Positions 1 to 17,073 of a DNA stretch of 21,969 nt are shown here, piece by piece. The translations under genes were made by a program, and so were the position numbers. This stretch comes from a virus. The DNA lies in the IMG/VR virus record IMGVR_UViG_3300021959_000458, positions 1-21,969 of that record; one strand, 5' to 3'. The stretch's first letter is position 1. The number at the start of each line of letters is the position of its first letter. The notes beneath the pieces are model-generated. The model was not told where the DNA came from. It worked only from the letters and a program-made list of their open reading frames with translations, and searched no databases.

Positions 1-3000
1 GCACTTTCCGAAGCGACTGGTCTAGCAGTTAGAATAAATATATTCTTGTTACCAAATTTATCTATTGCTTTTTGTATTCTTGGAATTAGTGGGCCAGGCT
101 GGCCTTTAACTACTTTATTAAATTCACTGAAATCAAACTCAGCTCCTTCTGCTAGAAGTTGTTCTCCTTTTGCTGCAAACTCGGCCGGAGTTATCATATA
201 GCTTTTGCCATCTTTTTTAACTATAACCTGGCTCTTGCTAAACGCTAGAGTGTCATCAAAGTCATAAACACTTATACCTTTTGGATTTTCAGAGTAGGAT
301 CTTTTGGCTGCGTTTTTAAAAGCTTTGTCTAAGTTACTATTTTTATTAGCATTTTCTGGATTAGTTTTAGAAAACAAAGAACCTACAAAATTTCCAGTCT
401 TAACATCAAGAAACATGATGCCTAAATCTTTATATCTAACGTCAAATATTGGATCTCCAGGTCTATAACCTATACCCATTTTTTCTTGAGTACCTCTTTC
501 TCTTAATATCTTATCTAGTTTATCGGGCAAAATAGCTGTATCATAATCTTTTAAAAGTGTTTTTATGTCTTTTAAAACACTAGCATCTTTATTGATAAGA
601 TACTTTACACTATTGGTAGCCATAGTTTTAGCTGTGATAACATGCTCAAGTACTAGTTTGTCTTTATCAAAAGCTAAACCCATTTCAGCAAGCTCTTCAA
701 CTGTAGCTATTGTTCCATCGCTTTTAACCGGAACAAATCTAGGTGCAGCCATTGCTTTGCCTACTCCGTTCATGTCGGCGAACTGACTTATTATTAAAAA
801 TTCAGCTGCTGCTAACGATATGCTACCATCTTCTACCGAATTAGCTAAAAATTCTAAAGATTCTAAAAATATTGCTTTATCTACTTCTCCTTCATTATAA
901 AGATCTAAAACCTTATCTATTTTTCCTTGCTCGCCAAGTTCAAGGAATTTCTTACTAACGTACCAATTTTTTCTAGATTGATCCGCCGGTCTTTTTTTAC
1001 CTTTAGTTGATTCGATACCTAAGCTGTTATTCATATCAGCAACGTTACCAAAATTACCGTTTCTACTAGATTTACCTTTTGGTCTTAACTCTACATTTTC
1101 AGATGTTAAAATTAATCCATCAGGCTGTTTTTTCATTAAAAATCCAGCTAAGCCTCCTGGTTTTTGAAGACCGTCATACCAACCTCTAATAAACTTATCC
1201 TCTCCTAAAAAATCAAAAAGCTTTTTAGAAGCTAATCTAGTTTCATTAATAAGGTCTATGTTTTTCAGATCAAACTTTCTTTCAATACCGGCTTGAGCAA
1301 AAATATCTTTATATTCTATAGGAGACATTATTTCTCTAGCGACATCTAAAGACAAGTCTAAAGCTACGCTCTTTTTATCTCTACTTTGTATTTGAAACTG
1401 ATAATTATTAAACAAAGCATTGCTACTTATTTGATCAGCTATTTGTTTTAGTTTACGTTCTGTCAATCCTAGTACTTCGTTTTCTTTGAAATGGCCTACT
1501 ATCGCTGTTTTTAAGTTTCCATTTTCAGCTACCAGTCTATTTATAAATGTCTCAGTGTTTATTCCTTCAATAAAATTGTTTATTACTGTGGGATCGTTTT
1601 TAGCAGCATCATACAATGCCGATACAGATCTTTTCACATTACCTCTTTCTGCTTGTTTGTTGAATTCTTGAACAAAATTGTTTGCTAAAACAGTGCCTAC
1701 TCTTTCTTGGTTTTCTTCAAATGCTTTTCTTATTTCGCTATTTGGATTTAAAAGCTCTTGACCATAGACGTCAAAAGCATACTCTTCAGCTAATGCTTTC
1801 GCTAGTGCTTCTTTTCTACCTCTAATAACTTCATCACCTTTGAACATGTAAGTTAAGAACTGCTCATCAGTAATTTTATTAGCAGCATTAGGTAGTCTTC
1901 TAACTAGCTGTGCACCAGATGTTCTACCTGCTTTGTCAGTACCAACACTTTCACGATCTATTTTTTTACCTTCCCAATCAGAAGTGAACTTACCATCAAC
2001 AGACTTTTGAATAGCAAAAGGCATACCTTGCATAAGCCAAGTGGTGGTCATGTTTTCAAGTATAGGCTTTTTAAGTTTTAAGAAGTTATTTCTAAGTTCA
2101 CCACCACGTTTAGCGCCTAACATCTTTTTAAATTCAATATCAGCTTGCTTACCTATTTCTTTTTTAATCTCAGACATTAAAGGCGTAACAGTCTTGTTTA
2201 TAGATGTTGCAGCATCAATACGCGATTTAAGTGTTTTAGTTATAAGCAGTATTTTGTCTTTTACTTTTGATACCATTTCAGCTGGTAGTACTTTACTATC
2301 TACTAAGTTTTTATATTCAACTCTTGGGGCTTCAGTTGTTGTTTCAACTACTGGTTCGTCAGCCACCTGTCTTGCTTCTTCAGTGTCTAAGCTTTCAGCT
2401 CGTCTTTCAGATTCTACTGCTAATCTCTTCTTAGCATCTAACTTACTAAATCTAGCATTAGCAAATAAGAACTCACCAAAAGTAATAGGTTCGCCGCTAG
2501 CAGTTTTTCTAACAGCTTTTGGATCAAAGTTTATTAATCTATCAACAACTCTCTCTAAGGTTATTTCTGCTTCTTCTCTAGAAGTAGATCTAGAGTTTAC
2601 ATAATTATATATAGGACCACCTGGTAGTGTAGCTTCATATATTGGATTAAATACTTTAGCATCTTGAAACTCTTCTTTTGTTTTTACATCTTTAGGTACT
2701 AAGTTATTTACGTCTTGCAGTATGCTTCTACTTCTTTTATTTTCTCCAGGCACGAACTCTTCAAGCTTTAGTTCTGCTTGCTTAGTTAGTTTACCTTTTT
2801 GTATATTTTTTTGATAATCTTTTATGAAGTCGAAAACATCTTGACCAGTTTCAAACCTAGCATTCTTAAGACCAAAACGAGTTTTAAATATTTTTACTAT
2901 TTTTCTACCTAACTCCATCAACACAGAATCTTGTAGTTGATCTTTACTTACTTGGTTCTTGCCTATCATGTCAGATAGTGCGGTGAAATATTCATCTGCG

Positions 3001-6000
3001 TTTTTTAAATCATCTACATCTACGCCTCTATCCCTGTAGTTTTTTTGCATTCTTTCATCTATAGTATCAAATAAGCCTTTATCTTTTAATATCTGCTTAA
3101 ATTCATCAACTACCTTAGCCATCTCTTTATTATTGGCAAACTCAGATTTAAGTATTTTGTGAAGAAGTTCATGGCTAGCTACAGAAATAGCTTGGAATTT
3201 TACAGCTACTTTTTCGTTTATAATTATAGTGCCATCTTCATCAATCATAAAGCCGTCAGATTTAAGATCTTCTATCTTTGTTTTGAGATTGTACTTTTTT
3301 CCTTCTTTTTTTGCCTTAGCTTCTAAAAATTCAATCATTTCTTTAGGATCACTAAAAGATTCAACTTTATCAGTTTTACCTTTAATAACTTCAGTTTGCT
3401 CTTTTATAGCTTTACCTGCGGCTAAGTTTATTATGTCTTGTTTCTCTTTATTAAGAGCTTCTATTCTTTCATCTATTTTAGAAGTAGCTTGCTCATCAAG
3501 ATTCTTTTTTTCTGCTTCTAGTTTTTCAATTTGGCTACCTTTTATAGCAGCGTCAATAAATGCAGTTGGATTGTTTAACATCCAAGCAGGTGCTTTTGGC
3601 GCATAGCTTCTTATAGCTTTTGCTTGATCTATTATGTCATCTGCTTCTTCTTGAGTAATTTCTCCTCTAGTTACAAAGTGGTTTAAGACTTTTTGAGAGT
3701 AGTCTATGTTTTCTGACAACTTGTGAAGATTCTTAAGTCTATTTTTAGGATTCATAGAAAAACCTTCAACAGCAGATTTTAAATTAGCATTTGTCATACC
3801 AGCAGCTGTTGCGCTTAATATTGCCGTATTCCTAAAGTCATCAGCCGTCATTTCTTCTATTAGAAAATCTTGGCTAGCTATTTCATTTATTTTTGGATTA
3901 ACAACATAAGTTTCAGCTCCTTCTTGTATAACCTCTTCTCCTATTTCTTTAGTTATAGCAGTGCCAGTCTTATAAAACTCTTTACCAACGTTAGTTATAC
4001 CTCTTTTAAAAGACTCTATAAAAGCTATTGTACCTTTGTTTCTGTAGTCGTTTATAGATTGCCTAGCCACACCAGCTCTAGCAAATATATCGTCTAGCTT
4101 GTTAAGCAAAGGAATTCTTGGATTTATAGGCCCTGTGGAGCCATATATAACAGAAGTCATAGGTGCTGCTATAAGAGCTAATTTCTCAGCCTCAGAGTCA
4201 GTTAGTCCAGCTTGCTTAGCCTGATTAAAAGTGCTTTTGTATCCATTACTATAACCACTCGTGCCGTAATATATAGTAGCGTCAGCAACTCTAACATCAA
4301 AAGATAAATTTTTACCAAAGGAACCTTTTGTATTACCTTTTACAAACCTGCCAGTTTTTAAATTTCTAGCTTGCAAATTTATAGGCTTTAAGCCTTTTGC
4401 TTTCCTTATAGCATTTGTTCTATTTATATATTTAGAAGAAGCTGCGTATCTGAGCTTACCTACGCCTTTAGTTAAAGCTACATCAGCTAATAAGTTGCCT
4501 AGCATTCTTCCACCATGCACTGATAAACCATATCCGCTATATTCTACGTCGTATTTTCCTACTTTATCTATTATGTTGCTTATTCGTTGATATTCTTTGC
4601 TACTAACTCTGTCAGATATAGGTAAGCTATTAGCTACGTTATATATCGCACCGTCGTCACCTTTTATATACTCTTCGTTACCAACTTTAGCTTTTAATCC
4701 TCCTAAAGAAACAAAGTGTTTTTGCTTAGTATCAGACATGTCAACTAAGTTTTTTGAAGATATACTTCTGTTCATGTATCTAGGATCAATTCCAGTAACG
4801 TCTAATAATGCGCCAGTAAATAAATCACCTATACCTCCAAAGTTCTCCATCGCACCATACGCATTGTATTCAACCCAGTTAGATAATTTGTCTAAAGCAG
4901 ACTGCGCAGTACCGTCTTCTAGTGTATTTTTATAATATTCTTCTTCTTTTTTAGCTAGCTCTTTTTTATACTTATTTAAATTTGTAAAATTATTTTTCTT
5001 CCATAAATCTAGTACTGATGTGTCGAAGGCTGGTATTAATCCACCGTTTTCTCTTACAAAACTATTGTAAGCTAAATCCATAGTTTTAAACTGCTCGTAT
5101 TTTTTAGGATTTTTTTCGTAGTCCTTGTAAAACTCTTTAGCAGTATGCTTTTCGTGCAATTCTTGAACATAATTATTTAAATGTATATCGAGCTCATACT
5201 CTTTGTTTATTTTTTTAAATTCTTCAGCATCAAAACCTTCTCCTGTAAAAACTCTTCTAACACCTGCTTGAGCTGAAGGTACATATTTAAATCCATCTTC
5301 TGCGTCTTTTGTAGAAAAATCTTTAGTAATACCTAGTTTATTTAGATGGCCTTGCAGATCAAGATTATTTGGCAGTCCTTTTATGTTTGGGTAGTATTTT
5401 TTTACAAACCAATCGCTAGATTTTTCATACACAAACTCAGGTGCAGGCTCTTTATCATAGTAGTACATGTTTGCATCTGATGGGTCTACGTTTAAGTCGT
5501 ATTTGTTATAAAAATCTCTAGGTGTTTTTGCAGATGGAGCTCCTAACTCTACTTCTCTTTCTTCAGAAACTTGCTCAGGCATATCTATAGCAAAAGTTTG
5601 CTGACCAATATCGGACATAGAGCCTGACTGTCTAGCGGCTTCTCGTTGCAGTTCTTCTTCAACTTTGTAAATACCAAATGGATCAGAAAGATCTATATCT
5701 TCTTCTTCTGGCAAAGTTTCTGATAAAGGCTTAGCAGAAGGCGCTTCTGGATAATCTTTGTTGTAATATTTTTTTTGTTTTCTTATTTTAGAAGCCCATT
5801 CTTCTATATTTTCAGGCTCGACTACTTTCTCTTCTTTAGCATAAGAAACTAAATTATCTGCTTCTATAGCCACATCTAAAGATGTTTTTATTTCAACTTG
5901 ATATTTTCCATTTCCTACACTTTTTGCGTTAGGATAGTTTTTGAAAAAATCCGCCTTTTGCTGTGCGGTGTATTTACGTATATCTATAACTAAAGGGTTG

Positions 6001-6005: not shown

Positions 6006-6024
6006 GCTTATTTAATTAAACTAT

Positions 6025-7215
6025 TTATTTTATATCAAGTATTTCTTTAGCCGTTTTATTTATTTTTTCGTCAGACCATTTAGGATTTTCTTTTCTCAAT
6101 TCTTTTTCCATATTTGCTAGCTCAGTACTTTTATCATCTGTGCCGCTAGCAGGTGGCGTTGCTGTTCCTTGTATCTTAACTAACTTAGGTGGCTCTCCTG
6201 TTTTTGTAGGATATGCATAATATTCTCCATCTTGCAGTGTTATCTTGTCTGGAGAATAGTAAGCGCTGGTGTCGTTTCTAAAATTGTTTTTTGAAGCAGC
6301 AACTTGTTTTGCTTTATAGCCTTCGTTAGAAACGCTAGACAACACATCCATGTAATTATCTACAACTATATCTCTTAGGCCTTTAAAGCTAATAGCACCG
6401 CTATTATATTGGTCTAAACTTTGAGCAATGTAAGGATCATCTATCATTTTAACATTACCTATTAATCCGTCTGAAATTATAGACATCAAAGTATTTCTGC
6501 CTCCTTCGTCTATAGCTAATGCTAATTTGCTTTTTTCTAATTCGTACGTAGGATTACCAGGTTTCAACGGGACTCCAGCCTTATACGCCGTATCCGATGC
6601 TTTCAACATGTTTTTAGCAGCACTAAAAGCTTTTAATTCATATCCTGGTAAGTTGTCCATGGGGATAGCGCCATCATCACCTGCAAAACTAGGATTACCA
6701 TATTCGTCTACAACCATATCAAATTGTTCTGTAAATACAGATTGTAGTAAATTTACGTTAGCTATGTTTTCTGGCGACAAAGATGTTCTTTGTTGTCTTA
6801 TATCTTCTACTAGCTTTTGCTTGAACTCTCCGTAGTTCTTCATCTTAGCACTTAGATTTGTAAAAGAATTTTTTATATTAGTCATTTGACCTTGAAGATA
6901 CATATATCTATCACTACCTGTCTCTTGTTGAGATAATTCTCTACCAAGCACGACATAGTTGTGTTTTTGAGTTGTTAAGAAGCTATGTATGCTATTCTTA
7001 TATTTGTCTGGTATTGTTGTTAAGTCTACGTCTTGAGGAAGATTGTTCAAATAACTTTCTAATTTATTTTCATATACGTTTTTAACCGATCCTCCCGGAT
7101 TAGACGTAGGCGTAGTTCCTCCGCGAGTAGCTATTTGTAAGCCTTGATTAAACGCTGCTCCAATATCTACAAATCTTTTATTAGGACTTTTTCTTTGTGT
7201 TTGTGAATTAATCAT
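6025..7215 (-). CDS. Putative medium-sized internal virion/ejection protein
   Basis: I do not recognise a named family. The 396-residue product is mostly charged and predicted helical, with no signal peptide or membrane segment. The N-terminal 50 residues are Gly/Thr/Asn-rich (ATRGGTTPTSNPGG) and likely flexible. Residues 90-330 look like a helical bundle. A short beta-like piece with DGEYYAYPTKTGEPPK (about 328-343) is followed by a Thr/Gly linker and a basic C-terminal helix ending AKEILDIK. It starts 2 bases after the stop of the 227-residue gene and is followed 19 bases later by the giant gene, so the three are surely co-transcribed. Its start is backed by an AAAAGG motif 5 bases upstream, one of the few Shine-Dalgarno-like sites here. 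Position and size suggest the middle member of a three-protein ejection set (compare T7 gp14/gp15/gp16), which is inference. A tail or capsid cargo protein is the alternative. Confidence 0.8.
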   Translation of the reverse strand: MINSQTQRKSPNKRFVDIGAAFNQGLQIATRGGTTPTSNPGGSVKNVYENKLESYLNNLPQDVDLTTIPDKYKNSIHSFLTTQKHNYVVLGRELSQQETGSDRYMYLQGQMTNIKNSFTNLSAKMKNYGEFKQKLVEDIRQQRTSLSPENIANVNLLQSVFTEQFDMVVDEYGNPSFAGDDGAIPMDNLPGYELKAFSAAKNMLKASDTAYKAGVPLKPGNPTYELEKSKLALAIDEGGRNTLMSIISDGLIGNVKMIDDPYIAQSLDQYNSGAISFKGLRDIVVDNYMDVLSSVSNEGYKAKQVAASKNNFRNDTSAYYSPDKITLQDGEYYAYPTKTGEPPKLVKIQGTATPPASGTDDKSTELANMEKELRKENPKWSDEKINKTAKEILDIK

Positions 7216-7217
7216 AA

Positions 7218-7901
7218 TTACCTTTTAAATAAGTTATTAGGTTCTGCTTCCATCATATAATCAACTTTTTGCTGAGCCACATTACCAACACCACCAGCTA
7301 ATTGACCTATGCCACCCATCACTGCTTGTTTTGCTTGTGCTCTTGCTTCTCTAGCGTCGGATAGTCTATCTTGAGACATGCCTAGCAGTGTTCCTGTTTT
7401 CTGTGCTTGCATTTGTCTAGAAAGTAAATCGCCTTCTCTTTCCTGCGCTTGCAATTGTCCAGCCATACCTCTTTCTGCCATTAAGTTTGCTCTTTCTTGT
7501 TGACCTATATCTACCGAAGCTCTTTGAGCATTAACCGCTTGTTGGCCTGCCATAGCTTGTGCTAACGCGGCTATACCACTTCCACCAGCTGCTCCCGCGA
7601 ACTGATCCATAGTGTTCGCCATTCCTTGAGCTTGTTGTTGCGCTTGGAAATCTGCTGCTTGGGTATTTACTGTAAGATCTTCGTAAACATTTTCCATGTT
7701 CTTATAAGGATTAGATGTGTCTAGCTCTTCAAGCTGTCTCTTATACATGTCAAACTCTGCTTGAGCATTTCTTTCTTCTGCTCTTCTCTGTTTACTACCT
7801 ATAATACCACTAGCTATACCAACTAGGCCTCCTACCGCATTGCCGGCTTGCGAAAGTGCCATAGCAGGTAGTATTTTAAATGGTGAATTATTTTTTTGCA
7901 T
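7218..7901 (-). CDS. Putative small ejection/internal virion protein with glycine zipper
   Basis: The 227-residue product is rich in Ala, Gln and Gly. Near the N-terminus residues 20-35 form a perfect glycine zipper (G20, G24, G28, G32 at four-residue spacing) in a hydrophobic stretch. A second Gly-rich hydrophobic stretch (VMGGIGQLAGGVG) occupies about 194-206. Between them are Gln/Ala/Met-rich helices with the segment GGSGIAALAQAMAGQQ near 107-122. I recognise this layout from uncharacterised structural proteins of marine phages. Known counterparts by general character are the small ejection proteins of podoviruses (T7 gp14, P22 gp7), which insert in the host envelope as part of the DNA channel; homology is not shown. 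It begins 27 bases after the 125-residue gene and ends 2 bases before the next start. A minor tail or capsid-lumen protein remains possible. Confidence 0.8.
   Translation of the reverse strand: MQKNNSPFKILPAMALSQAGNAVGGLVGIASGIIGSKQRRAEERNAQAEFDMYKRQLEELDTSNPYKNMENVYEDLTVNTQAADFQAQQQAQGMANTMDQFAGAAGGSGIAALAQAMAGQQAVNAQRASVDIGQQERANLMAERGMAGQLQAQEREGDLLSRQMQAQKTGTLLGMSQDRLSDAREARAQAKQAVMGGIGQLAGGVGNVAQQKVDYMMEAEPNNLFKR
7221..7226 (-). promoter_or_regulatory. Shine-Dalgarno-like site for the 396-residue gene
   Basis: On the minus strand AAAAGG sits 5 bases before the ATG at 7215..7213. It overlaps the last two codons (Lys-Arg) of the upstream gene, whose TAA lies between the site and the start. 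Most other genes here lack any such motif, so this may be a real ribosome site or a by-product of the Lys-Arg codons. Confidence 0.4.
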
Positions 7902-7928: not shown

Positions 7929-8306
7929 TTATTTACTACTTTCAAATATCTCAGATCCCATTGCAAATAGCTCTGCTTTTTCAGTAGAATTATTTTTAAC
8001 TTCAACTTCCGCATAATAACCAAGTAGACTTGTCATATTAGCTCTATTGTCCTTGCTGAAGAACAAAAAGTCGTTAGATGCCGGCAATACTGTATTGCTC
8101 GCTACGTCGCAAGTTATTTGCTTAGCTGCGTAGTCTACGTCAGTTATAGGGCCTAATCGAACTAAAGAAGCGCTATCTGCAAAGTCTACAGAGGTAGCGT
8201 CGGCAAAGTTGTAGGTACTAGTATCAGCGTAATAAGCTACGTCTGTAGTTCCTTTTTGTATTGCTTGATTTAGTGGATAAGTTAGTGTAAATGTTATATT
8301 TGGCAT
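7929..8306 (-). CDS. Small virion structural protein (125 aa)
   Basis: This 125-residue protein looks beta-rich, starting MPNITFTLTYPLN. Its C-terminus (SLLGYYAEVEVKNNST, then KAELFAMGSEIFESSK) matches a pattern I recall from small conserved proteins in marine phage structural modules, often unannotated or called virion proteins. A short internal repeat is visible, NFADATSVDFADSAS at about residues 33-47. DFLFFSKDNRANM near 78-90 is also characteristic. No signal peptide or membrane segment is present. It starts 11 bases after the 822-residue gene and has no Shine-Dalgarno site (leader AATTAACAT). Its position between a large beta-rich tail protein and the putative ejection proteins suggests a small adhesin-associated, decoration or tail component. 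The exact role is unknown. Confidence 0.8.
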   Translation of the reverse strand: MPNITFTLTYPLNQAIQKGTTDVAYYADTSTYNFADATSVDFADSASLVRLGPITDVDYAAKQITCDVASNTVLPASNDFLFFSKDNRANMTSLLGYYAEVEVKNNSTEKAELFAMGSEIFESSK

Positions 8307-8317
8307 ATGTTAATTGT

Positions 8318-10786
8318 TTAAAATGGTGATGGCTCAACCCCACCAGTACCTCCTCCAAAATACTCTTCAGCGTCACTTACGTCCTGGTAAGAAGAACTAA
8401 GTCTATGCGTAATATCTCCACTTAGAGTATATGTATTAGATGCGCTTAGTGATGTAAGTGTGTTATTGAAGTCTACTATGACATCAAAAGTAGGTATTGT
8501 TAGTTTCCTATATATATTATCTGCTGACTCAAGAGATACGCTAGGTTGGCTCGCTACACTAAGTTGTGCTGACAGTAGTTCGGAGCTAGTGCCAAAACCA
8601 TGATTAAATATTAGAACGTAATCGTTAATATCAAAGTTCACAGGCAACGTATCTTGCGCGTCTATAAACGCTCCTGCTATTGTGAACTTAGCATGTGTAG
8701 TTGCCGTTGTTATATTTTGATTGCTATAATTAGCCCCACCATCATTAGACACCGTAATACTGCTACTGTAGTCATATTCGCTAGAAGTATATCTAGCAGC
8801 AGAGCCTGAAGAATTTATAAATTTGCTAATTATATGACTTATATCAAAGTTTATATTAAGTGTAGTTACTGAAGATTGAGCAGAGTTAAAAGCAAAAGTA
8901 TCTAAGCTATGCGTGAACGTCATGTCGCCAGATCCCCAAGCATATATGTTTAAATTATTCCCGTTTATATAAAGCTTCCTTCTGTTTAGAGAAGGCGTTG
9001 TTTCTGTAGTTGTATTTTGCTGACCAGCTTCTCCTGCTACTACGTCGTAATCAGGCTCTACTATTATTGTTTGGCTTTTATACACGGGCGTTTCGTCTGT
9101 TGTAAAAAATTCTATTTTTAAATAAGACTCGTCACCAGATAACGTTATAGAATCACTAAAGCTACGTGCGTTAAAGCTAGTCTTATCTGTAAGCGCTTGT
9201 CTTTGATCATCATCTAAAAATATATCTGCATTGGCAGCTAGGGCAAACGCATCGGCGTGACTAGTTGCTGGATCGCCACTACTAACCTTTCCAGCGTAAA
9301 AACCATTATCACTCGCTTTTAGAGTTGCAGTAACACTTGGCCTTGAAATATTACCATCATTTAGTGTTTCTGTGTAATTAAATTCTTTTAATTTATAAGA
9401 ATTTTCTTCGTTAGGTAAGTGAAAATCTTCATTATCATCAGTTATGATTAGTTCATAAGAATAATCATTTGTTTCTACATTTACGCTAGAGTTTTTCTGT
9501 CCTCTAGGCTCTACGCTTCCTTTAGAGTCATACAAATAATCATAATATTCTATAGTACTAGTAAGGCCTCCTCTAGTAGAGCTATAGTCCGACGTAAAAA
9601 AAGCAAAACCATTTCTTGATATATCAAACTCTATAACATCGGGATCAGGAGTGGTGTTTATATCAGGCGCTGAAGCGTCTATAGTAGTACCAGTTTCTGG
9701 TATTATAGTAAATCTATAAACTATACCATCAATATCGTCGGGTATAACTATATTTCTAAAAAATAACCCTGTATCACTTATGGTGTACGGATCAGTAGCT
9801 GGATCATAGCTTCCGTCACTTTGTATTTCTGAAGGATAAGTAGTGTTTGACGTTGATGGTTCAAAAGCAGTTGCTATAGTTGTTTGAGAGTTGTCAAAAA
9901 CATATATTCCGTCTGTAGAGTTTGCCGTAAACGTATCGCCAGATAGAGTACCTCTTTGCATTTTTATTCTAAACTGAGCACCGCTATCACCTATTATTTC
10001 AAGTCTTCTATTTATGCCAGTCAACCCAGCGTTAGCTGTGTTCATCTTATAAGCGTATATTTTTTTATCCAAACCTGGTATGTCTACACCTGCGCCTGTA
10101 AAAGTTATTAAATCACCTGATCTATCGACCCTAGGTATTGTAGCTTTTATTGTGTATACAACTTGAGTTAATCTATTCTCGCTATCAAAAGTATCTGCTC
10201 TAGTTATGTTGTAATCTTCTTCTGCTGTTGCATTAGAGGTATTGCTTATGACCACAGTAGGATCTTCATTTATAAAGTCATTAGTAGTAGCAGCTATTGT
10301 CATGACCATTATATTCACTGAGTTACCTGGATTGTCGTAAGCATAGAAATCTGTGGTAGATACAGACGATGCAAAATCTTCTACACTAGAAGCCACGAAA
10401 GTTACTTTGTTAGGTGATCCTGGCGCTACAAATGTACCTTGTAGTTTTACAGGTATTGAGTCTTCTGGCGTTGCGCTACCACTAGGATTTATATCTAAGG
10501 TTATGTTTTCCGTAGGTGCGTAAGCATCTACAAAATCTACAACAACGTTTACTTTGTTATTGGCTGCATAAGATCCATCGCTCTGAGGACCTCCGGTAGT
10601 TTCGCTATCAGATAAAGTAATACTTTGTATTTTAGCAGCATCTGGATTAGTTCCAGCAACAAAGTCTCTTGCTGCCACAACATATCCTGAATCAGGTATT
10701 ATTTCTAATGTAACACTCGCTACATCGCTTTGGCCTGAGGTTACAACCACAGTCCTCTTTTCCATACTACAATTTATTAATGCCAT
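8318..10786 (-). CDS. Large beta-rich, Ig-like modular tail/fibre protein
   Basis: The 822-residue product is rich in Ser, Thr, Asp and Asn and is predicted almost entirely beta. Several segments share a strand pattern: TLEIIPDSGYVVAARDF near 26-42 resembles FTIIPETGTTIDAS near 359-371. This repeat type, an 'I-P-x-x-G-Y' strand before an acidic turn, is common in Ig-like or BACON-like modules of phage tail proteins. The C-terminus ends in a Gly/Pro tail (EEYFGGGTGGVEPSPF). There is no cysteine cluster, hydrolase motif or signal peptide. It starts 3 bases after the muzzle-like gene and is followed 11 bases later by the 125-residue gene. I infer a tail spike/fibre or tail-surface protein that contacts the host. 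A head-surface fibre is an alternative. The gene boundaries are secure, the function is not. Confidence 0.8.
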   Translation of the reverse strand: MALINCSMEKRTVVVTSGQSDVASVTLEIIPDSGYVVAARDFVAGTNPDAAKIQSITLSDSETTGGPQSDGSYAANNKVNVVVDFVDAYAPTENITLDINPSGSATPEDSIPVKLQGTFVAPGSPNKVTFVASSVEDFASSVSTTDFYAYDNPGNSVNIMVMTIAATTNDFINEDPTVVISNTSNATAEEDYNITRADTFDSENRLTQVVYTIKATIPRVDRSGDLITFTGAGVDIPGLDKKIYAYKMNTANAGLTGINRRLEIIGDSGAQFRIKMQRGTLSGDTFTANSTDGIYVFDNSQTTIATAFEPSTSNTTYPSEIQSDGSYDPATDPYTISDTGLFFRNIVIPDDIDGIVYRFTIIPETGTTIDASAPDINTTPDPDVIEFDISRNGFAFFTSDYSSTRGGLTSTIEYYDYLYDSKGSVEPRGQKNSSVNVETNDYSYELIITDDNEDFHLPNEENSYKLKEFNYTETLNDGNISRPSVTATLKASDNGFYAGKVSSGDPATSHADAFALAANADIFLDDDQRQALTDKTSFNARSFSDSITLSGDESYLKIEFFTTDETPVYKSQTIIVEPDYDVVAGEAGQQNTTTETTPSLNRRKLYINGNNLNIYAWGSGDMTFTHSLDTFAFNSAQSSVTTLNINFDISHIISKFINSSGSAARYTSSEYDYSSSITVSNDGGANYSNQNITTATTHAKFTIAGAFIDAQDTLPVNFDINDYVLIFNHGFGTSSELLSAQLSVASQPSVSLESADNIYRKLTIPTFDVIVDFNNTLTSLSASNTYTLSGDITHRLSSSYQDVSDAEEYFGGGTGGVEPSPF

Positions 10787-10789
10787 GCT

Positions 10790-13700
10790 TTATTCTATTA
10801 CTATTTGTATATCTTCACCTTGAGACCCTGTAATTGCGTTTATGTATCCCAAACCTTGCACTGAGTACTCTTTAGTATCTAGATTTGCTAGTGTGGTTTC
10901 AGTTCCAAGTATATTATAAAACCATTTACCTTCTTTGTTTTTAAAAGTTTTAACTTGTCCACTTTGCAAATCTGACTCTATTGAGCTAACCCACCAACCG
11001 TCTTTAGCTAATCTATTTCTAAATTTGTTATCTGTGTCAGGGTCATCTACAAACACCCTAGCTTGTGTGCCCTCGTAATTTATAGTTTTAAATGACTTGA
11101 CAGATCCTGGCGCGTCGTTAAATATAAACTTAACAGATGATTCGTATTGAGTTCCGTAGAAGTTGTTTCTAGTCTCATTATCGTGAGACCATAACTCGCC
11201 ATCTTTAAATGTATAATATATATTATTTAAAGATAATCCATTTTCTTGTATAAAACTTTTTCTAGACGACCAAGCATTATTAGCTTCTACAAAAGACACT
11301 GTGTCATTATAGTTCTTAGCGCTTATATTCGGGTGATTATTTTTAACAGTTAAAGTTATATTGTATTCTTTTTTGTTTTCATCATAACTACCTACAACTT
11401 TATTAGCATTAGCAAGCTTGTCAGCGAAATAATCTTCCATACCATATCTAGATATTGGCTCTAAGCCGTCTCCAGAAAGTCTAAGTATCACACCTCTATT
11501 TTTATCAGAAAAATAAGCTCTATTGCCATACCTAGAATAAGACTCTGGGTTTTTACTTATACCGAAGTCTCCTGCATAAGGCATTATTGTGCCTAAAACT
11601 CTTGTACTAGCAATAATGTTAGTACTGCCATCGGCGTTGAAAAGTGCATCCTTATCTGATAGTATTTTAACAACATTGTCTTCTAAATAAACATCTAGAG
11701 CACCTCTTCTAAACTGCATCAACTGTATCGATCCATAAGAAGGATTTATAGCTTTTGTTATTTGCTCAGCTTGTATAAATTGATTTAGATTGTTAGTTCC
11801 AGATGTTGAGTTGTACAACCCAGAGAATATTATATCAGATTTTTTATTTACCTCTTTATACTGATCTTCTAGCACTGTAGACACTTTAACTCCTTTGCCA
11901 ATAACAGGTGCGTTAAAGTCGTCTCTTATTCTATCTGATTCAACACCATTGCCAAAACTAAAGCAATTGCTGTAAGAAAGTATTTGCGTATAACCGTGAG
12001 CTGACTTTTCATAAGCATTACTTGCTTCATAGTATATATCTAGCTCAGGAGCTTCTTTAGGCTCTGTTTCAAATATTCCAGGATTATTAGATGTAAAACC
12101 TTCGTCTTCGTAAAAAACATTTACTATTTCTATGTTAGTAGGATTTTCTTTAGATGTAAATCCATTTTTTACAGGAACCCACTTTAAAGGCTTGTCTAGC
12201 TGCAGAGTCCATTTTATAGCTCTACTAGTAGAATAATACCTGTTGTCACGAACTTCAGTTGTCATTCTGGTCCTACTCCAGTTTTTTATAGTGTAAACAG
12301 TTCCTTCAGGATCATCAGAGAATCTGAACATTGTTCCAACAGTCTGCAGCGATTTAACAAAGTCGGCGTATTGAGGAAAGACAGAAACACCTCCAAATTT
12401 ATTGTGCTCTTCAAAATGAGCCTTTTTACTTCCTTTTATAGAAGCACCAAAACCGTGATAAGCTATTTCCATGTAGTCATTGCCTTCATCCGCACCGTAT
12501 CCTGGCACATGATGTTGCTCGCCAGCGTTTCTAACCATGCCACCTCTAAAATCAGTGCCAAATCGACCCCATATTGAAGAGTTGTTCGATGGATCATATG
12601 AATCTAAATAGCTATACCTATCTATATACCACTCTTCAGCCCGTCGTAGCCGTAAATTCTTTTTTGTTCTATTTGGAAAGTTAGGATCTGGTACAGTATA
12701 ATAATATTCTTCTTGACCAGGATAGTAGCCTTTTTCAGCGTCTAGCCACCAACCATACCCATTTGCTGTTGCGTTATAACCTCTGTCAAATATATTTTGA
12801 GATCTTATTACTTTGTATTCTTGGGCGTTTTCTTTTGAAAGTAAAGAGTTATCTATAGTGAAATCTCTTTGTATTTTAGTAAAAAATCTGCCTTTAAACT
12901 CTGGCTTTGTTTTTGTTACTTTTTGAAATATTTCTATTGATAAGCCACCTTTATCATCAGTAAATTTAGGTATAAAAGCGACATCTTCAGCTGATAACGC
13001 TTTTTCTAAATTAATTCTATACTTAGCGTTACCGCCTGGAAGATTTTGTATGTTAGCTATCTCGTAGTATTTTGTTCTATTTTTAGAATTATATATTACC
13101 AGCCACAAATCGTTTAGCTGATGCACGGGTATTGCTGAGTCTACTGAATTTCCAGAACCTCCATATATTCTTCTCCAGTCGTTAGCTTTTATATCTATAA
13201 AACCACTGGATTCTAATGGATACCCAGAAGATGATGAAAATATACTATCTACCTCGCCACTTTGCGATATTGTTCGGTTTAATTTTCCTTTAGAAACGTA
13301 TTCTTGCTTTATAAAATCTGGCGCTTCATTTTCTATAGATAGCACTTTATACTTAGCTTGATCTTCTACAAAAACATCAGAGTCATGAGCTTTTTTTAAT
13401 GTTATAAAATCTTCTTCTTGTATTTTATTCCTATCAGAAGAAGAAAAAGCTATCCAAACATTACCATCCTCAGCAGGGTAGTGTCTATCCATAGCTATAT
13501 TATAATAAGGTTGTGATGTTTCTCTAATGTAGTATTTGTAAGAATCAACCCAATCAGGTTTAGGACTTGTAATTCTAACTCTAATACTATTTCTGCTAGG
13601 TGCAAATCCTTTGTTTAATTTAACAGAACCGGTTGTATCAGTTAGTACTGGTGTTTCTCTGCCATACTTGTCTCTATATACAACTCCTATTTGATAGGTT

Positions 13701-15283
13701 CTTTGAGATTTTATTGACTCAATCGCGTTAGTAGTGTCGTACTTTGAACTTGTCACCGTAACTGCAAATCTTACGCTTATCTCTTTACCTTGGCTCTTAA
13801 TGTTATAGTTTTCTACATAGTTGCCAAACATTAATCTATTGCCTGACACTGCCAAAGCTTTAGCTTTTCTAGGTACATTGTCGTATGGTCTTAATATTTG
13901 ATTAGATGGTATTACTTTATATATTAATTCAGATGTTATTTCTAACCTACCAGAATATGGATCTGAGAAATTGCCTACATCATTATATTCTGAATCTGTA
14001 GTCTTAATACTTTTTACTATGTATATGTTATTAGATACAGAATCTTTATATAGTATATCTATTTCTTCTACGTTATAAGGTTCATATATACCTGTGATTG
14101 AGGACGGTGCCCAGTTTCTTACTTCTAATTTTCTAAGTTGGTTTACCATGCCCAGGTTATAACCCTTTTTAGGATCATAATCAAATTCATCACCTAAGAA
14201 AGCTACTTTACTAAATGGTGATATAGTTGAATATTCTCCATCTTTATATTTATATCTGTAAGCAAACCTAACAAACTTAGTTTCAAATAAAGCTGGTTTC
14301 TGTATGAGTTTTATTTTCCACTTCTGTATACCTTGCTCTATGTCTGTGCTTATAGAATCTATGTTTATTTTAAAAACTTTAGGTGCATAACTATATGTCT
14401 CTAAAACAGATACTATAACTTTTGCTTGAGTGGTTTCGTCTTCTTCTGGATCATCTGCCAGCGTTATCTCAAGCTTATCACCAACTCTAAAGTCCGGTGC
14501 GGTACCGCTGACCTCTATTTCGCTTTCTTGAGGTCTTGGAAGAAAAGACGTGCTTGCGTCTGCCGAACCGTCTGCGTCTTGGTCAGTATACTCTCCTGTT
14601 TGAACAGGCTTCCAGCTACCATCACTGTCTAGAAATGTAAAAGAATATCCAGAAGATGGTACAGTAGGTCTAGGATTTAGCCTAGCTACTATAGGGCCTT
14701 CTCTAGTTGTTTTAGACATTTTAAGTACAGGTGCTGTTCTAGGACCTTCTTTTATTACAGTACAATGTTTTTCTTCAAAATCTCCACCATCCACCTGCGT
14801 GTGCGACCATAGTCCATTAGTGTAGCTTTTCCAATCAGTAACTTTTATCATCTTTGGTTCTGTTTTGTTGTCAGTCCAAATTAAAAAGTCGTCTAATATT
14901 TCCACACCTGTTATTAAATTATTTTTATCAAAATTTAATATTCTATTTTGATCTACTAGCACAGGCGTAACAGTGTTTTCTACTTGGTTATATTCTATTA
15001 TTAAGCTTTTTTCATCGCCACCTACAAGCCAGTATATGCACTCAGTTTCATCTCTTTTTATAGCACCAACTACATAAGCGTTTTTGCCTAAATTAGAAAC
15101 ACCTATAGCGCTAGTATAAGGCAATTTGTTGCCTAATATATTTTGCAAAGCTCCAACGTCGCTACCTTCTGATGTTGATACTTCAACATTTAAAGCGTCT
15201 CTGTATTGACCATTGGGAACAAGTCTTTCATCAAGGTCTTTGTTCATCATACCCTTGCTGAATGTTCTTTTTAACTCTGGCAT
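10790..15283 (-). CDS. Muzzle/nozzle-like tail tube protein (1497 aa)
   Basis: This is the longest complete gene here. The N-terminus (KGMMNKDLDERLVPNGQYRD, residues 10-29, then LNVEVSTSEGSDVG) is a signature I recall from large 'stabilization' or structural proteins of marine and crAss-like podoviruses. Family knowledge: proteins at this position form the tail nozzle/muzzle, analogous to T7 gp12 and P22 gp10, and are built from beta-propeller and beta-sandwich domains. The sequence fits, with many short beta strands, aromatic residues and repeated 'Y-F-S-D-x-N-R-G' style loops; NRAYFSDKNRGVILRLSGDG lies near 1250-1270. Residues 234-242 read DQDADGSAD, a calcium-loop-like pattern. There is no hydrolase motif. 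It starts 2 bases after the upstream ring-like gene, with no Shine-Dalgarno site, and is followed 3 bases later by the beta-rich tail gene. The specific muzzle role is inference. Confidence 0.85.
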   Translation of the reverse strand: MPELKRTFSKGMMNKDLDERLVPNGQYRDALNVEVSTSEGSDVGALQNILGNKLPYTSAIGVSNLGKNAYVVGAIKRDETECIYWLVGGDEKSLIIEYNQVENTVTPVLVDQNRILNFDKNNLITGVEILDDFLIWTDNKTEPKMIKVTDWKSYTNGLWSHTQVDGGDFEEKHCTVIKEGPRTAPVLKMSKTTREGPIVARLNPRPTVPSSGYSFTFLDSDGSWKPVQTGEYTDQDADGSADASTSFLPRPQESEIEVSGTAPDFRVGDKLEITLADDPEEDETTQAKVIVSVLETYSYAPKVFKINIDSISTDIEQGIQKWKIKLIQKPALFETKFVRFAYRYKYKDGEYSTISPFSKVAFLGDEFDYDPKKGYNLGMVNQLRKLEVRNWAPSSITGIYEPYNVEEIDILYKDSVSNNIYIVKSIKTTDSEYNDVGNFSDPYSGRLEITSELIYKVIPSNQILRPYDNVPRKAKALAVSGNRLMFGNYVENYNIKSQGKEISVRFAVTVTSSKYDTTNAIESIKSQRTYQIGVVYRDKYGRETPVLTDTTGSVKLNKGFAPSRNSIRVRITSPKPDWVDSYKYYIRETSQPYYNIAMDRHYPAEDGNVWIAFSSSDRNKIQEEDFITLKKAHDSDVFVEDQAKYKVLSIENEAPDFIKQEYVSKGKLNRTISQSGEVDSIFSSSSGYPLESSGFIDIKANDWRRIYGGSGNSVDSAIPVHQLNDLWLVIYNSKNRTKYYEIANIQNLPGGNAKYRINLEKALSAEDVAFIPKFTDDKGGLSIEIFQKVTKTKPEFKGRFFTKIQRDFTIDNSLLSKENAQEYKVIRSQNIFDRGYNATANGYGWWLDAEKGYYPGQEEYYYTVPDPNFPNRTKKNLRLRRAEEWYIDRYSYLDSYDPSNNSSIWGRFGTDFRGGMVRNAGEQHHVPGYGADEGNDYMEIAYHGFGASIKGSKKAHFEEHNKFGGVSVFPQYADFVKSLQTVGTMFRFSDDPEGTVYTIKNWSRTRMTTEVRDNRYYSTSRAIKWTLQLDKPLKWVPVKNGFTSKENPTNIEIVNVFYEDEGFTSNNPGIFETEPKEAPELDIYYEASNAYEKSAHGYTQILSYSNCFSFGNGVESDRIRDDFNAPVIGKGVKVSTVLEDQYKEVNKKSDIIFSGLYNSTSGTNNLNQFIQAEQITKAINPSYGSIQLMQFRRGALDVYLEDNVVKILSDKDALFNADGSTNIIASTRVLGTIMPYAGDFGISKNPESYSRYGNRAYFSDKNRGVILRLSGDGLEPISRYGMEDYFADKLANANKVVGSYDENKKEYNITLTVKNNHPNISAKNYNDTVSFVEANNAWSSRKSFIQENGLSLNNIYYTFKDGELWSHDNETRNNFYGTQYESSVKFIFNDAPGSVKSFKTINYEGTQARVFVDDPDTDNKFRNRLAKDGWWVSSIESDLQSGQVKTFKNKEGKWFYNILGTETTLANLDTKEYSVQGLGYINAITGSQGEDIQIVIE

Positions 15284-15285
15284 AT

Positions 15286-16371
15286 TTAGTGTTTAATTAT
15301 TTTAGATTTGTTTTTCATTACAAGATTTATCTCTTCTATTTTAAGATTAGACAATCTTAGCTTAGCTTGTCTTAGTGCAGCTCTTCTTTCTTTCTTAAAT
15401 CGAGCGACTATGTATTCTGGAGTATTAATTCTAGAAGCTAGTATTGCGTAAGCCACATGCTTGTATATTGCTTCTTCAGCAAATTTATGCACTCGCATCT
15501 CGTTTTCAGTTCCTAGTCCATCACTTATATACTTTATAGTCATTATTTTGCCAACCATATTAGAGCTGAAGAAAATATAGCCTCTATTATTGTCTATAAA
15601 AAATGATCCATTAGACTGCGCGTGTTCTGGAGTTAAACCATATCTCCTACCTTGCGCTAAGCTAGCGTCGACGTCTGGCCTAGTAGTGTTATTTAGATCG
15701 TCATTTGTAGCTGAACTAGCCTTGAAGTCTTTCCAAGTTTCAGAATCAAACGCCTTTAATAAGTTATCATCACCTCCAAAAGTATAATTATAATCTGAAT
15801 CTTGCAATAGCGCTTCAGGATTACTGGTTTTTCTAGCTGGATACAATATTCTTTCGGAGCCTTCATCATCTTTATATGTAAACTTAACATAATTTACATA
15901 ATCGTGGGGAAGCTTCATTTTAAGTGATGGCGGTATTTCTATTTCTTGAGATTTCTCGGACTTAAGCGTGTCATAGCTAAACTCCTGCATCGCTCTTTGT
16001 ATATGGAAGTTTATATCTGGTATTTTTACTTTTGATATTATTTTCTCTTCACCAACGTAATTAATCCTGAAGTTGTTAGCAAGATCGTCTATGCTTATAT
16101 ATTGATAGTTTCCTAGCTTTTCACTTTCTGCTAATTGCTTTACTAGTATTATAGCTCCATCTGCTGGCGCAGTAAGAAATGTTATTTGATTAGGTATATA
16201 AGTGAATGTGCTAGTACTTTGCTCGATGCCATCAATAAATACTTCGAACTCTCCTTCGGCTGGCGCAGGGCTAAATACTGTAGTTAGCGAATATAAAACT
16301 TGTACTCCATCACCTACAAAAGATGCGGTGTTAGTATAGTACTGTCTTTCTGTTCCTTTAAATAATGCCAT
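15286..16371 (-). CDS. Head-tail connector/tail ring protein with N-terminal tail-fibre-like domain
   Basis: The 361-residue product has two parts. Residues 1-82 are beta-rich with the pattern SFVGDGVQVLYSLT ... EFEVFIDGIEQ ... ITFLTAPADGAIILVKQL, a small sandwich common at the N-terminus of phage tail-fibre proteins. Residues 90-190 carry ISIDDLANNF, DINFHIQRAMQEFSYDTL, PHDYVNYVKF and LYPARKTSNP. I recall this series from connector/ring ('tail tubular') proteins of crAss-like and marine podoviruses. The C-terminal 60 residues are basic and helical (ARFKKERRAALRQAKLRL), typical of ring proteins that pack against neighbours or nucleic acid. It starts 3 bases after the preceding ring-like gene and ends 2 bases before the muzzle-like gene, the expected order of neck to tail. 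The likely role is a ring between portal and muzzle, analogous to T7 gp11. Connector assignment is moderately sure; gp11 equivalence is inference. Confidence 0.82.
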   Translation of the reverse strand: MALFKGTERQYYTNTASFVGDGVQVLYSLTTVFSPAPAEGEFEVFIDGIEQSTSTFTYIPNQITFLTAPADGAIILVKQLAESEKLGNYQYISIDDLANNFRINYVGEEKIISKVKIPDINFHIQRAMQEFSYDTLKSEKSQEIEIPPSLKMKLPHDYVNYVKFTYKDDEGSERILYPARKTSNPEALLQDSDYNYTFGGDDNLLKAFDSETWKDFKASSATNDDLNNTTRPDVDASLAQGRRYGLTPEHAQSNGSFFIDNNRGYIFFSSNMVGKIMTIKYISDGLGTENEMRVHKFAEEAIYKHVAYAILASRINTPEYIVARFKKERRAALRQAKLRLSNLKIEEINLVMKNKSKIIKH

Positions 16372-16374
16372 ATC

Positions 16375-17073
16375 TTATTGTTTTTCTTGTTGGGTGTTCT
16401 TAGCGTCTTCTGTAGCAGCTATTTGATATAGTTGTGGATCTCTTATAACTATACCTGCTAAAGATAATATTTTTAATACTAACTCTGTTTCTTCAGAAGC
16501 GTGTAACTCAAAGTTTATTGATGTAGATGGATTGTATAAAGCTTCGTCATTAACCATAACATAGCCCCAGTAAACATCTGTTGGTTTTTTAATATAATTC
16601 ATGCTTAAATTATCTGCTTCTGCTGGTAGAACAGTGATTTGGTCTTGTTGAACTATGAATACAGGTCGTTTAACTGTTGGAGCAGTTAATGGTGAATTTA
16701 TATAATACCTTAATTCATTAGGATTTAGCTTTTCAGCCTCTACTTTGGTTTGAACACCATTTATAGTTTCTTGATGATACACAGCGCCAAGCTTGTGCAC
16801 ATTAAGTTCTGAGAGTGTACCTGTGCCTATAGGTGAGTTGTACACTTCAAATATACCTATTTTTTCTTCGAGCATATCGACAGCATCAGAATGAATAGTA
16901 TCATTGCCCGGTAATCTTAAAAATTGATTAAGATCATAAAAATACTGCTCGAATATATCTAATTGAGCTTGATTAGCAAGTGTATTAAATTCTTGCGGAG
17001 TTATATAGCCTCTTTGCTCTTTGTTGGCTATAGCTAAAACTCTTAGATAAACTGTATTTATATTTACTGCCAT
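16375..17073 (-). CDS. Putative neck/ring structural protein
   Basis: The 232-residue product begins MAVNINTVYLRVLAIANKEQ and continues RGYITPQEFNTLANQAQLDIF. I recognise this helical N-terminus from conserved small structural proteins that sit next to connector genes in crAss-like and marine phages (ring-protein type). The middle (residues 60-170) is mixed beta, including RPVFIVQQDQITVLPAEA and MNYIKKPTDVYWGYV. Residues 190-220 form a helix (SEETELVLKILSLAGIVIRD), followed by a Gln/Lys tail. No catalytic motif or membrane segment is seen. The start ATG at 17073 has only a weak A-rich leader. A hairpin lies just upstream, and the next gene starts 3 bases after the stop. Its place between the head genes and the second connector argues for a head-tail joining ring. 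The neighbour-based call is moderate; no enzyme role is suggested. Confidence 0.8.
   Translation of the reverse strand: MAVNINTVYLRVLAIANKEQRGYITPQEFNTLANQAQLDIFEQYFYDLNQFLRLPGNDTIHSDAVDMLEEKIGIFEVYNSPIGTGTLSELNVHKLGAVYHQETINGVQTKVEAEKLNPNELRYYINSPLTAPTVKRPVFIVQQDQITVLPAEADNLSMNYIKKPTDVYWGYVMVNDEALYNPSTSINFELHASEETELVLKILSLAGIVIRDPQLYQIAATEDAKNTQQEKQ

Follow-up and report, generated by a model that had tools for sequence, protein, structure and literature searches.

Three consecutive genes of an IMG/VR virus record of 21,969 bases (IMGVR_UViG_3300021959_000458; the whole stretch is referred to as the window) most likely encode the proteins that a marine podovirus ejects as cargo; the phage is related to Pervagoviridae (Callevirus) and Elemovirus, and the gene layout is that of the cassettes of crassviruses and phage N4. 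The candidates are abbreviated S (small), M (middle) and L (giant). The assignment is made because a muzzle-type gene lies upstream, the S-M-L order is conserved, counterparts were recorded in phage phi40:1 by tandem mass spectrometry (MS/MS), and the layout is that of crAss001 and N4. The set resembles the cassette of gut crAss phages more than that of T7, with which the parallel is one of layout only. Homology to the crassvirus set was shown for the muzzle domain, and is suggested by sequence for S and for the zincin of L.

A sequence-only reading of the window had described a T7-like ejectosome. An ejection set remains the best reading, and the order and size gradient of the genes do match T7; however, no profile similarity was found, and the sizes of M and L lie outside the gp15-like and gp16-like ranges. 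The gene lengths of 227, 396 and at least 2001 codons, the gaps of 2 and 19 bases, and the position after the tail genes had been given correctly, but the span assigned to the set (6025-7901) covers S and M and leaves L (3-6005) outside. The ejectosome idea itself is known; what is new is the clade, together with the apparently exchangeable enzyme slot of L.

Virion detection and conserved gene order

The main genes of the window are open reading frames that all lie on the minus strand. They are ordered as the end of a portal gene, a scaffold-like gene, a capsid-type gene, a gene of 269 amino acids (aa), two neck/tail genes, a 1497-aa tail gene, an 822-aa gene, a 125-aa gene, S, M and L, with the portal and scaffold-like genes named by their position relative to phi38:1. 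The gaps lie at 7216-7217 (S to M) and 6006-6024 (M to L). The 1497-aa tail protein carries the crassvirus muzzle C-terminal domain (47.4 bits against a cutoff of 27; Table 1). The annotated relatives of the muzzle-type and capsid-type proteins are mostly phages of marine and Baltic Flavobacteriia, namely two Cellulophaga phages of the genus Callevirus (Pervagoviridae), phi38:1 and phi40:1, together with Flavobacterium elemo phages, Maribacter phage Panino and, for the muzzle only, two Tenacibaculum records; a further relative, ctfjg026, is from a spring. Pervagoviridae is placed outside Crassvirales in the NCBI taxonomy, and has been set near Crassvirales by capsid and terminase models (PMC9855967; this and the other articles named here are cited from excerpts). 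The tail of a Callevirus isolate is short, at approximately 23 nm (PMC8776804).

The GenBank record of phi40:1 carries the remark 'experimental MS/MS proteomics analysis' for gp91, gp92, gp93, gp95, gp97, gp98, gp99, gp100 and gp101. In phi38:1 and phi40:1, gp97 to gp101 comprise a muzzle-type protein followed by proteins of 132, 200, 549 and 1691 aa, in the same order as in the window, with gp99, gp100 and gp101 occupying the S, M and L positions. S aligned with phi38:1 gp99 by BLASTP (34% over 82 columns, E-value (E) 3e-8 in a single comparison) and by hhalign (probability (Prob) 93.9, E 1.6e-7; unrelated control, Prob 0.1). On these alignments, S is homologous to gp99 of the marine Cellulophaga phages. 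The presence of counterparts in the virion is linked to S by homology, and to M and L by position, through gp100 and gp101. The Cellulophaga loci differ from the window in that gp101 lacks the HExxH motif and shows no similarity to the zincin, HAD or C-terminal profiles of L, that no gene comparable to the 822-aa one lies between gp97 and gp98, and that gp100 resembles M by weak hints only.

The conservation of the order was assessed in 52 distinct IMG/VR contigs with S, which fall into 33 clusters when S is grouped at 90% identity. A frame of at least 342 aa (where complete) directly followed S in all 49 contigs with an intact S and enough sequence; two contigs ending after S, and one (L035) with an S of only 106 aa and no M called, were left out of this count. 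A tblastn search with the M of the window found M in 36 of the 52 contigs, and the remaining M genes were named by position. Of the 45 contigs in which 400 bases or more remain after a complete M, 43 continue with a long frame; 30 of these frames are complete (1585-2810 aa), and 13 run off the contig after 233-2606 aa. The remaining two (L010 and L033) have a shorter frame and then a second long one (1139 and 1391 aa, and 229 and 2146 aa, respectively). In L022, a second frame, of at least 707 aa, comes after the 1585-aa L frame. The division of L in these three contigs could reflect either gene splitting or sequencing errors. Upstream of S, the muzzle was matched in 51 of the 52 contigs and the 125-aa protein in every one.

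Across the contigs, S measures 203-298 aa and complete M 342-527 aa. Among the other isolates, the lengths at the S, M and L positions are 216, 500 and 1829 aa in Panino and 205, 449 and 3694 aa in elemoF, and in ctfjg026 the best S match is a 302-aa gene followed by a 644-aa gene and a giant. Identity to the copy in the window is 34-73% for S and 12-46% for M. The better conservation of S was counted in favour of the ejection reading, as gp14-like proteins are likewise better conserved than gp15-like ones (PMC8954989). One contig with an S relative (L069, PBPJ01000012.1) is filed under a Red Sea Woesearchaeota metagenome-assembled genome, and is most likely a phage contig in the wrong bin.

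Similarity and predicted structure of S and M

To provide an empirical null, the S profile was compared with frames of 100 or more codons, 192 in all, drawn from seven phage loci (phi38:1, ctfjg026, Panino, elemoF, crAss001, T7 and P22). The five best frames were phi38:1 gp99 (E 2.2e-5), crAss001 gp45 (E 1.8e-4), the S gene of elemoF (E 2.5e-4), the S gene of Panino (E 0.0028) and the 302-aa gene of ctfjg026 (E 0.016), that is, one tail-following gene from each crass-like or flavophage locus; the sixth frame had an E of 0.033. The match in crAss001 gp45 spans residues 139-204 and overlaps the membrane helix predicted at residues 136-158 (PMC10172136), so S resembles a part of gp45 with a predicted membrane helix. 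The gp45 protein is cargo protein C1, which was seen in the tail and the capsid and is thought likely to be ejected first (PMC10172136). In crAss001, the muzzle (gp44), whose family domain PF25729 is present in the muzzle-type protein of the window, is followed by gp45 (C1), gp46 (C2) and gp47, a 2341-aa giant with HExxH. A relationship of S to C1 is suggestive at the sequence level. C1 is considerably longer than S (842 against 227 aa), and M has no detectable relation to C2 (rank 66 of 192, E 0.29). The M comparisons were made with the core of the alignment, leaving out its gappy C-terminus.

The sequence-only reading had credited S with membrane-inserting features. The best 19-residue Kyte-Doolittle mean of S (1.28, residues 16-34) is close to that of T7 gp14 (1.31), but the signal is weak, as 79 of 500 shuffles of S equalled it. 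By the same measure, P22 gp7 reaches 1.31 and crAss001 gp45 1.73, and the S family ranges from 0.95 to 1.86. The predicted structure of S is helical and includes one helix of 107 residues (predicted local distance difference test score (pLDDT) 66), and that of M is mainly helical with small strands (mean pLDDT 79). A comparison of folds with known ejection proteins, which had been suggested as a check, placed no ejection protein among the best 50 of 53 PDB matches for S or the best 50 of 225 for M; a missing match proves nothing, and a second look at 50 fold matches of M, again with no ejection protein, decides nothing either. Two further matches of M were set aside. A match of the M model to viral models (E 2.4e-4) had TM-scores of at most 0.40 and was not used, and one of M to the designed protein 8prj (E 7.9e-5) covered 25 positions with no stretch passing alone, and was discarded.

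These structural results bear on an alternative in which only L is delivered. In that case, S and M would help in assembly or packaging, as a core scaffold or as chaperones for L, and would form no conduit but remain in the particle once it is empty. The hydrophobic segments of S are weak, its long helices, predicted with low confidence, could belong to a coiled scaffold as readily as to a pore, the listed fold matches of M include no solved tunnel protein, and the enzymatic signatures are confined to L. Against this stand the resemblance of S to the part of C1 that contains a predicted membrane helix, and the precedent of T7, N4 and crAss001, whose small and middle proteins in the corresponding positions have been described or proposed as ejected (PMC8954989, PMC10172136, PMC12633501). 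We consider this alternative improbable.

The giant protein L and its enzyme modules

L carries a clear zincin signature (HExxH with a downstream E) in its sequence. In an alignment of 19 giants made without regard to the motif, H945, E946, H949 and E1005 of L were invariant in all 19 and made up four of the six invariant columns, which could be counted only within the copy in the window, as this copy ends at the contig end. Of the 47 long frames (45 distinct), 43 contain HExxH, and the four frames without it are those of phi38:1 and Panino and two cut early by contig ends. When the zincin profile was compared with the 192 frames, the elemoF giant ranked first (E 1.5e-5) and crAss001 gp47 second, both aligned at HExxH. 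The elemoF giant (L005, 26917-38001, 3694 aa) has a DUF3293 domain ahead of HExxH, an additional module. The largest protein had been read as containing an enzymatic domain 'as in T7'; the zincin signature and a HAD half-domain agree with an enzymatic L, but are not of the T7 kind, and no transglycosylase match was found in L.

In crAss001, the zincin is located near the C-terminus of gp47 (2157 of 2341), whereas it is mid-protein in L and its relatives. The Carjivirus counterpart of the crAss001 giant bears the annotation 'putative RNAP associated protein fused to zincin protease'; no RNA polymerase, N4-type included, was found in L, in a test that is weak for its poorly conserved N-terminus. 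The ejection operon of N4 also follows a tail gene, and encodes gp52 (150 aa), gp51 (644 aa) and gp50 (3500 aa), the last with HExxH at 2228, and then a large helical part (PMC12633501). Unlike this layout, the sequences show no significant profile similarity to N4 for S, M, the zincin or the C-terminal part, and the L N-terminal profile reached gp50 residues 113-268 at an E of only 0.014. L also resembles the phage polyvalent proteins (Iyer et al. 2017, PMC5512222), in which a zincin with HExxH and a downstream E is joined to other enzyme modules and encoded beside virion genes; L has this composition and is encoded among virion genes. It differs from them in that no Pfam LPD or other polyvalent-domain model matched the 19 giants, with matches considered up to E 0.05.

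Near the end of the copy in the window, L contains the first half of a HAD-type domain. Profiles of the HAD region, of a P-loop kinase region and of a C-terminal part were built from some of the sequences that were then searched with them; the HAD profile matched 23 of 47 giants and the kinase profile 3 of 47 at the same place, and neither matched the others. The three kinase members (L014, L015 and L016) represent two distinct relatives, since L015 and L016 are identical. The conserved C-terminal part of approximately 750 residues was found in 34 of the 47 giants, and in the window would lie beyond the contig end. The motif-based HAD alignment included L024 and L025, in which an insertion displaces the domain. 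The HAD region resembled PHROG_415 (polynucleotide kinase) in 4 of 19 giants (best E 5.5e-5), and the half-domain of the window had no family match in PHROGs or Pfam. In L014 and L015, the kinase region scored above the Pfam thresholds for Zeta_toxin and AAA_33, and its match to the polynucleotide kinase-phosphatase model TIGR01663 was far below the cutoff. The HAD module is possibly like the 3'-phosphatase half of polynucleotide kinase, and the Zeta-type kinase possibly like its 5'-kinase half. The N-terminal half of L varies more rapidly than its neighbours; with the closest relatives, approximately 15% is shared up to residue 926 or 1034 and 76-87% beyond it, a pattern that looks like module exchange.

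It is conceivable, though on balance doubtful, that L is ejected as a carrier and has, just ahead of its conserved C-terminal 750 residues, an exchangeable slot for end healing, filled by either the HAD phosphatase or the P-loop kinase. The enzyme, once freed by the zincin, would repair broken ends of tRNA or phage DNA at once, and so blunt nuclease-based defences before phage gene expression.

The make-up of all three proteins is relevant to a further alternative, that they are external tail or fibre proteins with an incidental size gradient. S, M and L do adjoin tail genes, and MS/MS does not separate inside from outside. However, fibre proteins are usually beta-rich, and the predicted structures of S and M are helical (mainly so for M). 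L combines a zincin with a HAD or kinase module, and the crAss001 counterparts are internal cargo (PMC10172136). This explanation appears very improbable.

The T7 and P22 sets (gp14, gp15 and gp16; gp7, gp20 and gp16) share the gene order and size gradient of the window, but L is far larger than their large proteins. The absence of sequence similarity to T7 gp14, gp15 and gp16 noted in the sequence-only reading was upheld by profile comparisons, in which S, M, the zincin and the C-terminal part showed none to T7 gp11-16 or to P22 gp5, gp7, gp16, gp20 and gp26, and orthology of S, M and L to either set was rejected. The published size ranges are 181-240 aa for gp14-like, 431-982 aa for gp15-like and 609-1337 aa for gp16-like proteins, with gp15-like proteins mostly matched by size and synteny (PMC8954989); S fits its range, but M, at 396 aa, is too short and L, with at least 2001 aa, too long for theirs. 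A diverged but true T7-type core, with the genes as orthologs of gp14, gp15 and gp16, is hardly credible: the order is that of T7, S is within the gp14-like size range, and the 125-aa protein stands where T7 has gp13 (138 aa), but the S profile reached P22 gp7 only at rank 12 (E 0.095) and T7 gp14 at E 0.47, L combines its length with a zincin rather than a transglycosylase match, and the 125-aa protein is related to the muzzle, with no relation to gp13 shown.

Proposed ejection pathway and neighbouring genes

By analogy with T7, N4 and crAss001 (PMC8954989, PMC12633501, PMC10172136), S, M and L would be held in the capsid and tail before infection and would leave ahead of the DNA. Receptor contact would open the muzzle. 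S, the likeliest outer-membrane element, would exit first and help to build the outer-membrane end of a conduit, and M would line the periplasm as a tunnel. L would come last, threading through partly unfolded; its N-terminal part would lie close to the inner membrane, and the remaining domains would enter the cytoplasm. The zincin would most likely cut L itself, freeing its domains (here, the HAD phosphatase) once inside or during assembly; this is suggested because the zincins of polyvalent proteins have been proposed to cleave these proteins into separate units, either at assembly or following entry (PMC5512222), and that proposal fits L.

Several observations weigh against assigning S, M and L to an ejection set. 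Ejection is what we infer for the three proteins; MS/MS places proteins in virions without giving their position inside or outside. For S, the fourth and fifth ranks of the profile test are individually weak, and the ctfjg026 gene differed from the one guessed beforehand. The similarity of S to gp45 is modest (E 1.8e-4, or 2e-4 with a five-phage profile; Prob 46-48) and may rest on hydrophobic-basic composition; a three-isolate S profile matched the five-phage gp45 profile only at E 0.025, and the latter matched the S of the window alone at E 0.032. For M, hmmsearch gave a domain E of 0.001 to phi38:1 gp100 with filters off, alongside an equally strong match to a wrong gene, and in hhalign against the 192 frames the phi38:1 and Panino counterparts ranked 11 (E 0.086) and 14 (E 0.091). 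For L, the counterparts in phi38:1 and Panino lack HExxH, the zincin profile reached crAss001 gp47 at E 0.013 and N4 gp50 at E 0.2 (0.039 for the C1 part of gp50), and no Pfam peptidoglycan hydrolase domain was found in M, in 18 L relatives or in L, which is incomplete in the window. Plain tblastn of S in 50,697 phage records gave no match, and neither did that of M and L; as PHROGs, Pfam and NCBIfam also gave no usable match for S, M or the L of the window, all of the homology rests on contigs and profiles. Profiles of S, M, the zincin, the HAD region, the C-terminal part and the L N-terminus found no convincing match among solved structures. Among the literature matches listed, there was no description of ejection proteins in the Pervagoviridae/Callevirus/Elemovirus clade.

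The features of the window are listed in Table 1. The 125-aa protein and the muzzle C-terminal region both match phrog_18548 and phrog_38031, and in 6 of the 54 loci having both matches, the best match of the 125-aa protein shared a frame with a match of the muzzle. The 125-aa protein may be a muzzle end that was detached or duplicated, the variable 822-aa gene being an insertion between the two. The 822-aa protein, which had no family matches in the PHROGs and Pfam searches, was matched in 22 of the 52 contigs; the gene at that site varies in length or is absent, while its neighbours are kept, as might be expected of a host-range appendage. A three-sequence capsid profile recovered all four flavophage-type capsid genes at Prob 100, with no crAss001 genes among the best seven of the 192 frames. 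The 361-aa tail protein (15286-16371) has approximately 80 extra N-terminal residues that are weakly like DUF4183 (E 0.003, below the cutoff) and are unaligned in the homologs of the isolates.

Table 1. Positions of the S, M and L genes, their segments and the neighbouring virion genes in the window.
Feature	Coordinates	Strand	Remarks
S, small protein, 227 aa	7218..7901	-	gp14-position; predicted helical; homologous to phi38:1/phi40:1 gp99; candidate for the pore component ejected first
M, middle protein, 396 aa	6025..7215	-	gp15-position; mainly helical; candidate periplasmic tunnel, from position and size
L, giant multidomain protein, at least 2001 aa, truncated before its C-terminus by the contig end	3..6005	-	gp16/gp47/gp50-position
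Hydrophobic glycine-rich segment of S, residues 16-34	7800..7856	-	Inside the part aligning with crAss001 gp45 residues 139-204
Zincin-like metallopeptidase region of L, residues 820-1056	2838..3548	-	HExxH and downstream E invariant
HELLH putative zinc-binding motif of L, residues 945-949	3159..3173	-	Third-ligand candidate E1005 at 2991-2993
HAD phosphatase-like domain of L, N-terminal half, residues 1889-2000	6..341	-	Second half beyond the contig end; DFDDT at 249-263
Muzzle-type tail protein, 1497 aa, proposed gate	10790..15283	-	PF25729, E 2.7e-12; phrog_14478, E 1.1e-150
125-aa protein between tail gene and S	7929..8306	-	Related to muzzle C-terminal region; phi40:1 gp98 at the same position is a virion protein
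822-aa protein, probable tail appendage outside the ejection set	8318..10786	-	Variable between relatives; putative role
Tail/neck virion protein, phi38:1 gp96 homolog	15286..16371	-	phrog_13977; hhalign E 5.1e-36 to phi38:1
Tail/neck virion protein, phi38:1 gp95 homolog (MS/MS-noted in phi40:1)	16375..17073	-	phrog_14543; hhalign E 1.7e-24
Major-capsid-type virion protein, phi38:1 gp93 homolog	18029..19462	-	phrog_13704; 'capsid' by position and family

If S, M and L are the cargo proteins of this podovirus, the crassvirus mode of cargo storage and ejection would extend to marine flavobacterial podoviruses outside Crassvirales, and a function would be given to genes recorded only as 'structural protein' or 'hypothetical protein'. 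The occurrence of an HExxH giant at the end of the ejection operon in this clade, in crAss001 and in N4 suggests a recurring design beside the transglycosylase design of T7. The exchangeable enzyme slot in L may, in addition, tie ejection proteins to early counter-defence.

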